A stretch of 64,000 bases of DNA, taken from the NCBI GenBank assembly GCA_004519485.1, contig CP038125.1:124001-188000 (forward strand). The letters are read 5' to 3'. Origin of the DNA: Nannochloropsis oceanica (lineage: Eukaryota; Sar; Eustigmatophyceae; Eustigmatales; Monodopsidaceae). The notes under the pieces were generated by a model. It was not told the DNA's origin and did no database searches. It saw only the letters and a list, made by a program, of their open reading frames with translations. Below, piece after piece: positions 27,266 through 64,000 of this stretch (position 1 is its first letter; each line of letters starts with the position of its first letter). The position numbers were made by a program, and so were the translations under genes.

Positions 27266-28050
27266 GATGAGCAGTCGAAGGGCTGAGGCTGCCTTGTGCC
27301 CTGCTGGGGAATGTGCCGCTGCGGAAGCAACCCCTATTCTGAAGACGGTGGTTTCGGAAAGCGTATTTGGTCAAGGGCGGGACGGTCAAACACAGGCCTC
27401 ATATTCATCATATTGTTCCAAGTTGTCACGAGAAGACAGGGTGGAAGCAGGTCGCCCTGGGGCCAAGTGGCCAAATTATTTAGCAATGCGTTCGCCCGAT
27501 CGCACCGGCGATCCTCACAACGTGCGTGCTCGGAATCCGGGGGAAATTCATAAGGAGAGAAACTACTTAATTCGCCAACAAGAACGGCTCAAGAACGGCT
27601 CTTTCATCTCCTCTCCTCGTGCACAGCTCAAAAATCGAACAAATGGAACCTTGTCGAGTCAATCCCCGTTGACGCAAGTCCATTCTCCATGCATTGATGA
27701 CCTTGTGGAGGAATTAGTCTACCGGCGCTGGCATAGTTTTCATATCATGGTGGACAGCTTGTGTCACACGGCGAAGGAAATGGCGACCAGACCTGCCTCT
27801 CAGCCTCCGACGTGGTGAAAACGATACCCTGCGAGGCTGGCATTATCGACCTCCATGAGTCCCTCCTCAACGATAAGCCGACAGCACTGCCTCTGAAACA
27901 GCTGATGTAGAGCCCAGAAACAGTATTCCCATAATGAGGAGCAAATGTGTGTATGTGTGAATGTGTGAAATGTGTGATGTGTGATATGATGTGATGTAAT
28001 GTATGTGTATATGTGATATGTGATAAATATATATATGTATTGGTTCTTTA
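27266..28050. other. Intergenic region upstream of the qRRM gene
   Basis: It must hold the qRRM promoter. A 184-codon plus-strand open frame (27264-27818) has no recognised motif or splice context and is not called. A TG/TGTA-rich microsatellite occupies about 27945-28035. Confidence 0.45.
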
Positions 28051-28208
28051 GTTCTTTTTGCCGTTCCTACATCCCTCTAGAACTATCGCATGCAACCTGC
28101 GTCCTCTAGGACTTGCATACGAGGGGGAGCCTTCCAACAAGAAATTGTTGCCTATTCACCCCTTATCCCTTGTCCGAGTTTTTCTAGCGACTTTGACTGG
28201 TTTTTGGG
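28051..28208 (+). repeat. Second solo end of the Fanzor-element family
   Basis: Homologous to 59173-59330 and 17002-17173, in the same orientation, preceded by TA (28049-28050). It carries GCATGCAA/TTGCATAC (28088-28095, 28113-28120) and AACAA/TTGTT (28136-28149) palindromes and the invariant GTCCGAGTTTTTCTAGCGACTT block. Homology stops at about 28205 in front of unrelated sequence, so only the end survives. Confidence 0.85.
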
Positions 28209-29625
28209 TGCGGCGGCAGTAAACAAAACAGCTACGTGCCACGCACGCTTGCCTCAGCGCCCCCCTGTTCCTTTGGTGTGGCCACGATACTGTCGTACAC
28301 CTCCAGGTTGACGCGCGGGTGGATCAGCTGTGGGCGTGTGGGTGTGGGGCGCAGTGAATGGGCGGGTAGGAAGGAGGGAAAGGAGGGGGGGGGGATAGGT
28401 GGATGCGGCGGCAGTAAACAAAACAGCCGCGTGCCACGCACGCTTGCGTCGGTTCTTGGGAGGAGGGGAAAGCATTCTACTGCACCTGGTAATCTACCAT
28501 CATGGTAGTGTAGCAGCTGTTGTCCAACATGTAACAACTGGCCTGGACTAGCCTGAAGCCAATGCCCAAATACGCATCCCTCGTCCCAGAATGTCACAAA
28601 AAGCTTGTCAAACTATTTTTTTGTAGAAGAAGAAAGGAAGAGTCAACGAATGCACTTTCCTTGGGAGGAGCTCGGCGACTCGTTCGGATTTGGGGCGGGA
28701 TGTGCTTACTTTATCTGACGCACAGGCCAGATTTCATACCATGCTTTGTTTCTGCTTGGCTTCCATCCAAGACCGTATACGTGAGTTGTTGACTTAAAAG
28801 ACGACGGGTAAAGGGACTTTCCTTTCTAGGACTTTCGGGTAGCGCCTGCCTTGCCGAGGGCGCACATACCACCCAAAGGAAAAGCAGATGCACGCACGCA
28901 CGCGCTGGAATCACCGAAAGATTCGACAACTTCGAGCCTGGCTTTTCCGTACTCCCCAAGGGATCATGAGAATGTGCGGCCTAAAAAGCAAGATACCATC
29001 TTTTGCGTCCAATTTTATCGTTGCTATCATGCAAAAATGATCACCTGCCAATTAATCATTGCCTGGTGTACTTTTTGGTATATTTCCAACACATGGTATG
29101 TGCCCGTTGGAGGGAACGGGCACATACCAAAATATTCACGGTTTTCACCTTTGTGTTTTTCCCAAGCACCACCCCACCAATTGACCTGTCGCACAAAAGA
29201 TAAAGAAGAATCAGGTCTACATTTTTCACTACGTGACTTGGTGTGTCTTTTTCCTTTAAATTGGTTCTTTAGAAACTATCCTTCCTTCTCGCCCAAAAAT
29301 GCCCTCCCCCGCCATCCAAATGTCTCCATACACCGTATCGCTATTTCGCCTCCATAGTCTCTGCATCAGGGACCTTTCATGCTATCTCCTTTATTCGTAA
29401 CGCTATCTTCATACGTAATGCAGAAACTTCCATGTTCACGAAGAAATCACCACAACATGCATTAGAAGACGGTGGTGCCTATTCGCCGGTCCCTATACCC
29501 TAGTCTTTGCTTGCAAGGATGGCCAGCAGTGTGCGTGGAATCACTCCACAAGGTTTGGTCCCAGGCCCACATCAGTTTTTACGAATCAAGCACCAAGCAA
29601 AGATGTTCACGCTGCTTTTTACTCT
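28209..29625. other. Intergenic stretch with a 45-bp direct repeat
   Basis: No complete gene. Two direct repeats (28208-28253 and 28402-28447; core GCGGCGGCAGTAAACAAAAC and GTGCCACGCACGCTTGC) bracket a minus-strand open segment LIHPRVNLEVYDSIVATPKE preceded by a good polypyrimidine-AG acceptor. That could be an orphan terminal exon, but no partner exon is visible. A 15-bp perfect inverted repeat lies at 29094-29129. The plus-strand frame 28851-29357 has no recognisable domain. Confidence 0.4.
29094..29129. repeat. Perfect 15-bp inverted repeat with GGAGGG loop
   Basis: Arms TGGTATGTGCCCGTT (29094-29108) and AACGGGCACATACCA (29115-29129) pair perfectly across a 6-base loop. No U-run follows and no gene ends here, so it is not an obvious terminator or histone-type element. 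Confidence 0.9.
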
Positions 29626-59157: not shown

Positions 59158-59172
59158 GTGTTTGTACGCCTA

Positions 59173-59409
59173 GCTCTTTTGAGCTGCGTTCCTACATCTC
59201 TCTAGAACTATCGCATGCAACCTGACGTCTTCGAGGACTTGCATACGAGGGGGAGCCTTCAAACAATAAATTGTTGTCATCCCTTATTTCTCGTCCGAGT
59301 TTTTCTAGCGACTTTAATAGTTTTTTTGACCTGGCAAAGTCCCCGGACGGCCCACACAGGGCCAGGAGGAGAAGGGGGAGGAAGATAAAAGAGGAGGTCA
59401 GCGGGAAGG
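59173..59409 (-). ncRNA. Candidate omega (guide) RNA region downstream of the Fanzor gene
   Basis: Lies between the Fanzor stop (59410) and the element edge, the place where TnpB and Fanzor elements make their omega RNA, whose 3' end runs into flanking DNA as the guide. All four copies of this end in the window keep two palindromes although their bases differ: stem GCATGCAA.. and stem AACAA../..TTGTT (AACAAT/ATTGTT, AACA/TGTT, AACAA/TTGTT). The outer boundary is fixed by the TA junction. The RNA itself is inference; TIR function alone could also conserve the palindromes. Confidence 0.4.
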
Positions 59410-60128
59410 CTACATATAGAGTGTCCGCATGTCCTGCCGCGGTTGACCAAACCGAAGATCATGGGGACGAGCTTCTCCACGGACCATACTCCTGTACACC
59501 CGCAGGATGTTGCGTGCCCCATTGCCGTCCCGAGACACGAACTGTTTACAGGTGTTACACCAATACAGTCCTCGGATGGCCCGCCCATGACCTCCTCCTC
59601 TGCTTCGTCCTCGTTCTCCTCCGCCTCCGCCTCGTTCTCCTCCGCCTCCTTCTCCTCTAATTCCTCCGCCTCCACCCCCTCCTCCTCCTATGCCTCCTCC
59701 TCCGCCTCCTCCGCCTCCGCCTCCTCCGCCTCCTCCGCCTCCTCCTCGTCCTCCTTCTCCTCCTCCTGCTCCTCTGTCCTCTCCTCCTCCTCCTCCTTCC
59801 CCTCCTCCTCCTCCTCCTCCTCCACCTCCTTCTCCACCACCTCCTCCTTCTCCTCCTTCTCCTCCTCCTCCTCCTCCACCACCTCCTCCTCCTCCTCCAC
59901 CACCTCCTCCTTCCCCTCCTCCTCCTCCTCCACCACCTCCTCCTCCTCCCACCACCTCCTCCTCCACCTCCTTCACCTCCCCCTCTTCCCCCTCGTCGGC
60001 GCGCCCTCACTATCTTTCTCTTTCCCTTCTCCATTCCTCCAGCAAGTGCCGCACGAATTCTACCAATGGTTGCTAGTGCTCGTGCTGCCTGTTCTCCGGG
60101 TAAAGAGAGTATAGTGGGGATTCCTCTC
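59173..60128 (+). repeat. Left inverted arm of the Fanzor element
   Basis: Pairs with 61767-62682. It contains palindromes GCATGCAA/TTGCATAC (59213-59220, 59239-59246) and AACAAT/ATTGTT (59262-59275), the GTCCGAGTTTTTCTAGCGAC block, the antisense of the Fanzor C-terminus (59410-59590), and a CCT/CTC tract (59590-59990). It is 40 bp longer than the right arm, mostly through indels in the tract. Confidence 0.88.
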
Positions 60129-61684
60129 ATTCCCTCTCCTCCTCCTCCTGTTGCCGCTCCGGCCGCCCCGACTCCTCCCACTCCTACCCTTCCAGGATCC
60201 CCTCCTGTATCCATCCTGCTATCCCTTCCCCCTCCTCCTCCTCGTCCTGCTGCTGCCCGGGCTCGTGCTTCAGCACGTGCCACCTGTATGGTCAGCCGCC
60301 TCTGGGCGGCTGCTGCTGCTTCCGCAGCCCGGGTTCTTTTCCCTCTTCTTCCTCCCCCTCCCCTTCCTCCCCCTCCCCTTCTTCCCCCTCCCCTTCCTCC
60401 CCCTCCTCCTCCTCCTTCCCCTCCCCCTCCTTCCCCTCCTTCCCCTCCTCCTCCTCCCCCTCCTTCCCCTCCTCCTCCTCCCCCTCCTTTCCCTCCTCCT
60501 CCTCCTCCTCCTCCTCCCCCTCCTTCCCCTCCTCCTCCTCCTCCTCCTTCTCCTCCTCCTCCCCTTCCCCCTCCTTCCCCTCCTCCTCCTCCTCCTCCTT
60601 CTCCTCCTCCTCCCCTTCCCCCTCCTTCCCCTCCTCCTCCTCCTCCTTCCCCTCCTCCTCCTTCCCTTCCTCCACCTCCTTCCCCTCCTCCTCCTCCTCC
60701 ACCTCCTTCTCCACCACCTCCTCCTTCTCCTCCTTCTCCTTCTGTCCTTCTCGCAATTGGGTTCAGGCGCTGCCCACAATCGAGGTGAACCTTTGTCGTC
60801 AGGTGCTCGGGTACATACACTGTTCTGTAGTACCTTTCGCACACCCGGAGCACCCTCTCCACCGGAACGCTCACCTCTCCCTTGCCTGTGTGCGGGAAAA
60901 TCCCCGCCCCATATGCGATAATGGGCTTCGCCTGCCCTGGCCCCGTCAAGCCCGCATAAAAAACATCCAAGACCTTCTGCTTCCCCGCATACACCGCCAT
61001 ATGCGCACGCGCCCGTTTCTTTTCACACCTGGCATCCCACAATCGGTGGTAATGCCGTACGATCAGCTCCCTGTGAGCGCCACGCAAGTCGGGACAGCAG
61101 GACTTCATCGTGGTCCTCGAAAAGGCGGCATTGATGTCACCGAGTGCGTCCTCCCAAGAGCTAAACTTTCTCTTGCACTCGTTGATCCGCCCCTTTTCGT
61201 AGTACGCACGACGCGTCAAGGTCTTGATCTTACCCGTCTGCGAGTCCAACGCCGTGACCAGGTTGACGCGACCGGGATCGATCGCGACAATGCGTCGCTC
61301 TCTGACTGGCTGCAGGTTTTCCTGTCCCTGCTGACGTTCCAGCATCTCCTTCTCCTCGTCCTCCTTTTCCACTCTGACCCTCTCCGCTTTCTCCCTCTTC
61401 AGTCTCTCCTTCGCCACGTGAAAGAAGACCGACACCGAGACACCATCCGTGGAAACCCGATTATGAAACACCCGCTGGTTTCGTAGATTCCCAACCTGAA
61501 AAGTCTCGTCCCACATCTCCTTCACCGAAACCGCATCCTGGCAAAACTTTTTGGTGTCCATCCCTCCCAGTCGCTTCAACCAATCGGGGCATGCTTCGCT
61601 CCATGCCTCCTCGGTCATCGCGGTGGGTCTGCGCCGCACCACGTTCTTAAGCAGATCACCAAGAGCTCTGGTATCGAGCGTCAT
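59410..61684 (-). CDS. Fanzor: eukaryotic TnpB-like RNA-guided endonuclease, frame not continuous
   Basis: From ATG 61684 (open to about 61762 without ATG). Residues 78-90 read STDGVSVSVFFHV, a Fanzor/TnpB wedge motif; RuvC-I is RRIVAIDPGRVNLVTALD (Asp136). At the usual RuvC-II place IIAYGAG carries no Glu, while VPEHLTTK has Glu293, fitting the shifted Glu described for Fanzors. Zinc ribbon: HLDC (about 300-303) and, about 400 codons later, YWCNTC (about 59557), followed by RuvC-III SRDGNGARNIL. The stretch between the two knuckles is Gly/Arg/Glu-rich (GGA repeats) with an interposed Ala/Arg-rich part (QVARAEARARAAA). The core and the C-terminus are in different frames; both are open through the GGA tract 59657-59976, so an indel or an intron lies there. 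Likely nuclear if expressed. Probably damaged in this copy. Confidence 0.8.
60320..60756 (-). repeat. GGA-rich low-complexity tract inside the Fanzor gene
   Basis: About 430 bp of imperfect GGA/GGAGGGG repeats (CCT/CCCCTCCTT on the plus strand). Open in all three minus-strand frames as Gly-, Arg- or Glu-rich peptides. Together with 59590-59990 it explains the large separation of the two zinc knuckles. Confidence 0.9.
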
Positions 61685-61766
61685 GAAATGACGCTCGATA
61701 CTGCAGATTGGAGCGATGGTAAACGCCCGATAGCCAGGATTCCCTCCGTGCTCGGCCTGCAACCCA

Positions 61767-62682
61767 GAGAGGAATCCCCACTATACTCTCTTTACCAGGA
61801 GAACAGGCAGCACGAGCACTAGCAACCATTGGTAGAATTCGTGCGGCACTTGCTGGAGGAATGGAGAAGGGAAAGAGAAAGATAGTGAGGGCGCGCCGAC
61901 GAGGGGGGAGAGGGGGAGGTGAAGGAGGAGGGGGAGGGGAAGGAGGAGGAGGAGGGGAAGGAGGAAGAGGAGGGGAAGGAGGAGGAGGAGGGGAAGGAGG
62001 AGGAGGAGGGGAAGGAGGAGGGGGAGGTGGAGGAGGCGGAGGAGGCGGAGGAGGAGGGGGAGGAGAAGGCGGAGGCGGTGGAAGCAGAGGCGGAGGCGGA
62101 GGAGGAGGCGGAGGCGGAGGAGGAGGAGGAGGAGGAGGAGGCGGAGGCGGAGGAGGCGGAGGAGGAGGCATAGGAGGAGGAGGGGGTGGAGGCGGTGGAA
62201 TTAGAGGAGAAGGAGGCGGAGGAGAACGAGGACGAGGCGGAGGAGAACGAGGACGAAGCAGAGGAGGAGGTCATGGGCGGGCCATCCGAGGACTGTATTG
62301 GTGTAACACCTGTGAACAGTTCGTGTCTCGGGACGGCAATGGGGCACGCAACATCCTGCGGGTGTACAGGAGTATGGTCCGTGGAGAAGCTCGTCCCCAT
62401 GATCTTCGGTTTGGTCAACCGCGGCAGGACATGCGGACACTCTATATGTAGCCTTCCCGCTGACCTCCTCTTTTATCTTCCTCCCATTCTCCTCCTGGCC
62501 CTGTGTGGGCCGTCCGGGGACTTTGCCAGGTCAAAAAACCTATCAAAGTCGCTAGAAAAACTCGGACGAGAAATAAGGGATGACAACAATTTATTGTTTG
62601 AAGGCTCCCCCTCGTATGCAAGTCCTCGAACACGTCAGGTTGCATGCGATAGTTCTAGAGAGATGTAGGAACTCAAAAGAAC
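61767..62682 (-). repeat. Right inverted arm of the Fanzor element
   Basis: Inverted partner of 59173-60128, 916 bp. Inner border at about 61767, right where homology to GGTAAAGAGAGTATAGTGGG ends. A few substitutions separate the arms (for example CCTGTAAACAG against CCTGTGAACAG), so the duplication is recent but not brand new. Confidence 0.88.
61861..62451 (+). pseudogene. Duplicated Fanzor 3' end in the right arm
   Basis: Plus-strand copy of the Fanzor C-terminus: MEKGKRKIVRARRRGGRGGG, a Gly-rich GGA tract, then GLYWCNTCEQFVSRDGNGAR and the end RQDMRTLYM. Unlike the left-arm copy joined to the core, this one is open in a single frame from 61861 to the stop. It has no RuvC-I/II and so cannot be a nuclease by itself. 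One residue differs (Glu for Lys in CNTC(K/E)QF). Confidence 0.82.
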
Positions 62683-64000
62683 TACTGAAAGGTTAGGGTT
62701 CCTTACAGGAGAGACTAAGTGTGTCCTTGTCCGAGTCCTGAGTCTGTGACCCAGGGGCGGAGCCGGAGCACGGAGACCCACCTGCCCCATACCGTCTGTC
62801 ACGGAGCCATCAATTCCCTCCCTGGCACCTGAAACGATGCTTTCAAGTAATTTAAGATAAATTCTTTGCATACTTTCTTCTATCTAAGAGGAGTTTGGAC
62901 GAAAACGAGAAGCCTGGAAAATCAGGACGGCTTGCTCTTCTCCCTGGTACCACAACACTACACTGACTACCACAAACACTACTACTACATCAGTGTTAAA
63001 ATAGTTGCATCCGAGGAACTTCGAGGTCTTGTGGAGCGTGAGGCCTGGAGCGAACGTGACCTACCCTCGAGGAAGCGCCGGATGAGGGCCTCCGAGTCCG
63101 AGTCCTGGCGTGGGACTTGAGGCTCTTCCATCTGGTGTGTAAGTGAAGGCCAAAGTACCTGTACATGGGCGTTGGACTACACACAGTGAATAAATCAACT
63201 TCATCAACGTCAAATAAAGCTGTAGGGACTACAGTAGGAGATGCTGCATTTGTGGTATGTTCATCGGAATAGTCCAGTGGTGGGAGTACAGCACGGTTCC
63301 CGATAAAAAGCCGCAGACGATCCGATACAGGTTGTGCACCGGTACAAAGGGTTCATGGCTTAAACAACCATGCTACTGTATGTCATTAGAATTTGAGTAT
63401 GGAAGCCCGGTCGCCTGAATTACTGCCCACATCCCGCCCCGACTTGGTATGAATACTAGACCACCAAGAAAAAGAATGAAGATCGAAACCCTTCGATGAA
63501 TGATGATCGTCTTGAACTCCCCCCCCATCCTTCCCGTGGTCGATGTATGGACCCATTCACCAAACCTTTCGAGAAGCCTCCTTATCCTACTCAATATTTT
63601 CAAGCAAGCAGAGCAACCGAGCCAATTGCTTAAGAAATGAACCTTTCGCCACATTACAATTTCACTACCAGTATTGTTTACTGTGGCTCACTCGGTGGCT
63701 GACTGTTGCAACGTTGGCGGTCGTTGGCAAGCAGTAGTAGTAGTATGTCATAGCTTAAAGGGGAGATTGGTCTCCTCCTTGATAAGGCGTGCCTTTTTGA
63801 CTCGCTAGGGCATGGCATAGGGCTTTGGAAATGTTGCCCACATCGTGTGCCATGCATTGGCTTACTTTCTGGAAGCCCCTTGGTACCTGCTGGGTCCTAA
63901 AGCTTGCTCTATAGCAGGCGGGCATTGATGGGTGCAAATCCGGCTCAACTTGATTATGAGCAGCATGACGAATGGAGACCTGATTGGTACACACGCACGT
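62683..64000. other. Window end, no supportable gene
   Basis: Short GC-rich open piece at about 63005-63120 plus (ELRGLVEREAWSERDLPSRK) ends in a stop and could be a terminal exon, but no partner is visible. A minus-strand frame 63373-63654 has a hydrophobic stretch but no known motif. Three GTA/TAG repeats near 63735-63745. Confidence 0.4.

Follow-up and report, generated by a model that had tools for sequence, protein, structure and literature searches.

Fanzor genes have long been described in elements flanked by TA, the mariner and SPu-1 cases among them, and one Fanzor1 family (NOc) is listed for the alga Nannochloropsis oceanica (PMC3627910; statements from this source and from PMC10432273 refer to the portions consulted). 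Here we describe a Fanzor locus of this alga, at positions 59173-62682 of a window of 64,000 nucleotides (contig CP038125.1, C27 in our numbering, positions 124001-188000). The genome searched comprises 29,264,788 bases in 32 contigs. A sequence-only reading had described the locus as a TA-flanked transposon with inverted arms of 0.9 kb. Our analysis shows two oppositely oriented copies of one repeat family. Both the Fanzor family and the inverted arms are real, but the locus probably represents a unique, defective compound rather than a novel kind of transposon.

Several described systems share features with this family, which is possibly identical to NOc, a family given without structure or target site in the text (PMC3627910). 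In the CRe-1/2/3 Fanzor1 elements of Chlamydomonas, the 3' end is intact in almost all copies, whereas 5' truncation and internal deletion occur; target duplications of about 7-19 bp are found mostly on truncated copies, with fixed bases preceding them, and Bao and Jurka read this behavior as one-ended transposition of the Helitron2 type (PMC3627910). The window family is alike in its Fanzor gene, constant 3' end, truncation or deletion, duplications and fixed bases ahead of the insertion. It differs in its target, which is YC|TA and not TTTT, and the CRe ends match known Helitrons. The MCi-2 Fanzor element of Mucor combines one 3' body with several 5' regions, as in the window family, and its 11-12-bp duplications have a fixed start, ATAATTNNNN, a fixed duplication start also being present here (PMC3627910). 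SPu-1 of Spizellomyces, with the nuclease SpuFz1, likewise has many short copies without the gene, but, unlike the window family, it has terminal inverted repeats (TIRs) at its two ends, and its ordinary copies show putative TA duplications (PMC3627910, PMC10432273).

Judged by title and abstract, PMC3627910 is the only one of the Fanzor papers found that describes elements of this layout. The word 'foldback' has 0 occurrences in its text, and a head-to-head double insertion was not found in the part consulted, nor was a head-to-head Fanzor insertion found in the literature searched, which had most subscription journals outside its scope.

Layout of the locus

The two copies in 59173-62682 have their 3' ends outward, and a TA follows each of them. 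Copy 1 (59173-61767, minus strand) is a 5'-truncated Fanzor element with its 3' end at 59173; its homology to L031, the family copy with the longest open frame, ends at 61767 (L-numbers of this kind denote family copies and other loci read in the genome). Copy 2 (61767-62682, plus strand) comprises the 3' part of the element only, ends at 62682 and is 95.7% identical to the reverse complement of 59173-60128. The outer boundaries, to which no strand applies, are a TA at 59171-59172, preceded by GCC, and a TA at 62683-62684. The TA flanks and inverted ends of the sequence-only reading are therefore correct, and so is the size of the arms, which span 59173-60128 and 61767-62682 (0.92-0.96 kb) and each contain zinc-ribbon coding sequence.

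Alignment of the arms (59173-60127 against 61775-62682) gave 869 matches, 39 mismatches and 47 gap columns, and their outer 0.4 kb are even closer, with 406 matches and 6 mismatches (98.5%). Since the layout is like that of hairpin-read chimeras, an inverted read join during assembly has to be considered, as the sequence-only reading had itself pointed out. Such a single-molecule chimera would give near-identical arms; the 39 mismatches and 47 gap columns argue strongly against this artefact, and we regard it as extremely improbable.

The similarity of copy 1 to its relatives extends up to the junction at position 61767, and that of copy 2 begins at the same position, so that the two overlap by 1 bp. 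No remnant of TAGGCGTA or TACTGAAA, the duplication expected of either copy, was detected at this point. The right flank, the only one used for this search, has a single occurrence in the genome.

The explanation that we favor, and to which we give about an even chance, is a dead compound insertion: two 5'-truncated Fanzor copies would have been joined head-to-head in one event at a palindromic TA. At the locus itself, it is based on the outward ends with TA and on the junction without duplications; elsewhere in the genome, on the unvarying 3' end of the family, the 5'-truncated copies, the target duplications seen in 7 of the 15 copies with a located 5' break and the single-copy layout.

Distribution of the family in the genome

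The genome-wide search for further copies of the ends, proposed together with the sequence-only reading, was productive. With a pattern of the 3' end, 64 exact matches with the terminus ..AAAAGAACTA were obtained, compared to 0 for the reversed control. The pattern itself requires the final TA; among 33 end rows picked without this requirement, 31 end in ..GA(A/G)(C/T)TA. A DNA search with the end region yielded 41 matches, and both searches combined give at least 74 distinct 3' ends in the 29.3-Mb genome, which is a lower bound because the DNA search scored 40 of 172 candidates.

The 3' end consists of GTAGGAAC, a variable spacer of up to ~20 nt, CAAAAGAAC or a similar sequence, and TA; an RNA copying intermediate, if there is one, would end at ..AAAAGAACUA. 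Exceptions are copy 1 and L054-left (..GAGC before TA), L049 (..GAAT before TA), L028 (TT after the end) and L067 and L040, both without the terminus. The spacer inside the otherwise constant terminus varies throughout the genome, for example between window positions 59173-59192 and 62660-62682. The L049 copy lies near a long telomere-type (CTAACCC)n array.

With regard to the body, near-full cores occur at seven places including the window; other copies belong to a ~2-kb class with an internal deletion or are short owing to 5' truncation. Five different 5' modules are all joined to one body. Whereas MCi-2A carries part of a Crypton transposase (PMC3627910), the longest open reading frame (ORF) in the four modules screened for ORF length has 271 aa.

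None of the six other near-full cores, each read with at least 4 kb upstream, has an inverted arm on its 5' side. One of them, L033, has a zinc-ribbon piece of 61-82 bp inverted on its 3' side, and L034 has no end match. Among the at least 74 ends, the window pair is the only one with outward-facing 3' ends within 6 kb. The ends of another outward-facing pair, on C6, are separated by 6.9 kb, and one facing (tail-to-tail) pair lies on C11. Tail-to-tail 3' ends were read at L054:558-1259, with a 16-bp separation and TA at both edges, and, as a second such pair, at L029:539-937. The inverted-arm layout, which the sequence-only reading had taken as a property of the transposon, was thus found at the window locus only.

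These data bear on the idea that the locus is a genuine foldback or TIR transposon, whose inverted ends of 0.9 kb are mobilized by a mariner-like transposase that duplicates TA. Such an element would account for the precise TA on both sides and for the inverted ends, and Fanzor in TA-flanked mariner elements has been described (PMC3627910). However, we saw no second compound, nor another outward pair as close as 6 kb; most copies are single-ended, duplications longer than TA are present in 7 of 15, and ordinary copies do not show the inverted repeats with TA-only duplication of a Tc1/mariner or foldback TIR element. We therefore consider a transposon unit of this kind improbable.

Target duplications and origin of the compound

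For 15 copies, the 5' break could be located by homology and the 3' flank was read; copies whose 5' break lies beyond the stretch read and in which a search for duplications found nothing, which are most of the 31 rows so searched, lie outside this set. In 7 of the 15, a target duplication of 7-13 bp directly follows the constant 3' end. It is exact in L050 (7 bp), L066 (8 bp), L035 (9 bp), L032 (12 bp) and a second, internally deleted family copy in the window (28051-29259, minus strand), which is flanked by a perfect 12-bp duplication, TAAAGAACCAAT, at 29260-29271 and 28039-28050. In L056 (13 bp, one mismatch) and L071 (11-12 bp, one indel) it is inexact. All seven duplications start with TA and are preceded by YC, and YC likewise precedes the TA on the left of the window element. 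As a control, 110 wrong pairings among 11 of the 15 copies gave a longest exact match of 6, and independent homology edges lie within ~4 nt of the placed breaks in all four copies checked (L032, L035, L071 and the second window copy).

A 12-nt match for L031, interrupted by one indel, lies 5.5 kb upstream and off the homology break to L044; it could easily be due to chance and was not counted. Outside the 15 copies, no duplications were found for L069, L031, L072 and L027 at the points where 5' modules diverge (L069/L070, L031/L044 and L072/L027), the truncated partner being ambiguous in these pairs.

Taken together, the family behaves as an element whose 3' end is fixed and whose 5' end is lost to varying extents. 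Like the one-ended CRe elements, it combines an unvarying 3' end with 5' truncation and variable target duplications. The insertion pattern likewise resembles target-primed reverse transcription, in that 5' truncation and target duplications beside the constant 3' end occur together in 7 of the 15 copies.

The missing arm in six other cores, the sole outward pair and the 7-13-bp duplications argue for two truncated copies placed head-to-head. According to this explanation, the family would insert with its fixed 3' end at YC|TA, lose the other end to a variable extent and often leave behind a 7-13-bp target duplication starting with TA. Because TA is palindromic, both sides of a break on it would be able to receive a 3' end. 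Two 5'-truncated copies could then have entered from opposite sides, each with its 3' end laid down first, and become joined mid-way in the same event, sharing one TA. The site before insertion would have had a single TA and is expected to read ..GTACGCCTACTGAAAGG.., that is, ..GTACGCC-TA-CTGAAAGG.. across the insertion point. The copying intermediate could be RNA, as in target-primed reverse transcription, or single-stranded DNA, as in one-ended, Helitron-like transposition.

Several findings weigh against this single-event explanation. Seven of the 15 copies (L049, L051, L054-left, L059, L068, L054-right and L039) have no duplication, L045 has a match of 5 nt only, and the duplications of L050 and L056 end in 5 and 3 nt, respectively, that fit the element as well. 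The breaks in the 11-copy control were placed after the duplications were known. A tree of the end sequences contains no supported clade for the two arms, copy 1 is equally near to copy 2 and to L047, and the two arms have different spacers within their 3' ends. Moreover, the compound was seen once and there is no empty-site allele for comparison. Finally, a reverse transcriptase search of the genome with PF00078 gave 2 matches, both below the cut-off, and PF14529 gave 0 matches; with each profile, controls were positive in 3 of 14 genomes, none of the 14 being known to hold long interspersed nuclear elements (LINEs).

Two separate insertions, the second copy arriving later beside the 5' end of the first, are the most serious alternative, which we rate as possible though clearly behind the single event. 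Here, a deletion or a duplication-free insertion would have left the compound without internal duplications, and this scenario gains from the frequency of duplication-free insertions in the family, as at 7 of the 15 located breaks. Copies do land side by side, as the tail-to-tail pairs L054 and L029 demonstrate, and the arms differ at 6 of the 245 sites compared in the 3' region. On the other hand, the junction lacks a remnant of either expected duplication, just TA is present at both outer ends, and the two arms are close kin: they have in common one variant found in 0 of 31 other ends and another found in 1 of 31.

As a further possibility, one insertion may have been followed by a local inverted duplication of its 3' part through fold-back replication or template switching. 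Inverted duplications do exist within other family copies (L036:1554-3397 and L037:3957-5394), where they suggest template switching during copying. Such a duplication should not end exactly at the 3' terminus beside TA and a unique right flank, though, and the 3' spacers of the arms should not differ as they do; we have little confidence in this scenario.

Fanzor coding content

The proposed assignment to the Fanzor nucleases was examined with the N-terminal part and core of L031 as query. Scoring the best 7999 candidates by shared words, we obtained 21 protein relatives (best E 3e-110, 42% identity), 6 of which carry a precomputed PF07282 annotation. In an alignment of 12 of these relatives with L031, the RuvC-I and GKGE blocks are shared; the CNTC..SRDGN block is present in the relatives and in the window arms, the L031 row ending ahead of it. 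The resulting 13-row profile matches the Spizellomyces Fanzor SpuFz1 (PDB 8gkh), with which the RuvC half aligns, at an E of 6.3e-7, and the TnpB-like protein L79 at 4.3e-5. On sequence comparison, the assignment of the family as a Fanzor/TnpB nuclease thus holds.

The window core alone matched nothing in Pfam or NCBIfam, and no Fanzor was among the best 60 of its 267 PDB matches. Zinc-ribbon pieces gave TnpB-type matches to domain profiles only below threshold. PDB matches of sequences containing the glycine-rich tract were set aside as low-complexity. In IMG/VR, 71 stretches found by pattern and compared by tblastn included no viral relative.

The published Fanzor motif is D-X(125,275)-[TS][TS]-XX-C4 finger-X(5,50)-RD (Bao and Jurka, PMC3627910). 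L035, in which core and ribbon share one frame, fits this spacing, with D, 159 residues and TT, followed by CNTC, 5 residues and RD. In its first half, however, the finger shows a single Cys in L035, as it does in 10 of the 12 aligned relatives, and at least two in P0018 and P0019.

In copy 1, RuvC-I (IVAIDPG) and RuvC-II (GKGEVSVPV) are encoded in one common minus-strand frame, within a core stretch at 60755-61684 that is 98.8% identical to the L031 core. The N-terminal part, present in L044, L033 and the protein relatives, is missing. The CNTC..SRDGNGARNIL block is encoded in both arms, as the sequence-only reading had noticed: the zinc ribbon/RuvC-III lies at 59410-59589 (minus strand) in copy 1 and at 62269-62451 (plus strand), inside an ORF starting at 61861, in copy 2. 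Contrary to that reading, which had treated 61684-59410 as a single translation, the ribbon of copy 1 is in a different frame from the core, whose own frame contains stops after 59657. Because of this mismatch and the missing N-terminal part, neither copy of the locus encodes an intact nuclease.

Between the zinc-ribbon halves, 59590-60754 (minus strand) is occupied by a mostly low-complexity tract coding for Gly, Glu and Arg, less repetitive in its middle (~60000-60350). The corresponding tract in L035 is much shorter and in frame. The ~1.1-kb tract of the window is absent from the aligned protein relatives. The constant 3' regions follow at 59173-59409 (minus strand) in copy 1, ending ..AAAAGAGC before TA, and at 62452-62682 (plus strand) in copy 2, ending ..CTCAAAAGAAC before TA.

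Five other genomic loci match PF07282 (TnpB zinc ribbon) above the cut-off (C1:1034208, C8:749907, C4:174104, C8:721866 and C11:980306). Three of them have an internal stop, and they apparently represent other Fanzor lineages.

Mobilizing enzyme and 3' region

A reverse transcriptase such as target-primed mobilization, as in non-LTR (long terminal repeat) retrotransposons, would call for was found above the cut-off neither with PF00078 nor with PF14529. Of the two weaker PF00078 matches, one is on C11. The other, the best RVT_1 match in the genome (C23; L082:1627-2450, minus strand), is by eye a decayed gypsy-type fragment. The Helitron profile PF14214 had no match in the genome, but was positive in 0 of the 14 control genomes, too. 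With regard to the terminal hairpins with asymmetric inverted repeats of Helitron2, a pairing of TAGTTC..GAACTA at the 3' end is visible by eye.

A spliced retrocopy was considered for L031, which is missing ~570 bp in comparison to L044 and L033. By eye, the gap has TGG at both edges and no GT-AG bounds, and so does not provide proof of an RNA intermediate by intron loss.

The 3' region can be aligned out to L040, L041 and L046. Its fold over 15 rows has 32 pairs, 2 of them with compensatory change, and a covariation term of -0.42. There was no match in Rfam. We regard the region as a candidate guide-RNA scaffold. As a check for guide matches, exact 9-12-nt words of 32 3' flanks were looked up in the 60-bp stretches upstream of 11 insertions, which yielded a single match, of 9 nt.

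Implications

That Fanzors are carried by so many unrelated transposons calls for an explanation, and the spread of this family without an evident partner is the part of our findings that deserves attention. Cas12-type nucleases leave 5' overhangs. It is conceivable, albeit unlikely in our estimation, that 3'-end-primed copying multiplies a Fanzor-only element here although no LINE reverse transcriptase is recognizable in the genome. The guide-RNA-like 3' region would then be the mobile end, a staggered break would give rise to the 7-13-bp duplications, and head-to-head doubles would form where both strands end in TA and prime.

If formed in a single event, the compound would document, in nature, that a copy was received on each side of one break. 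The many similar copies, the sharp 3' end, the YC|TA target and the lack of an evident partner make the role of Fanzor in the spread of this family testable.

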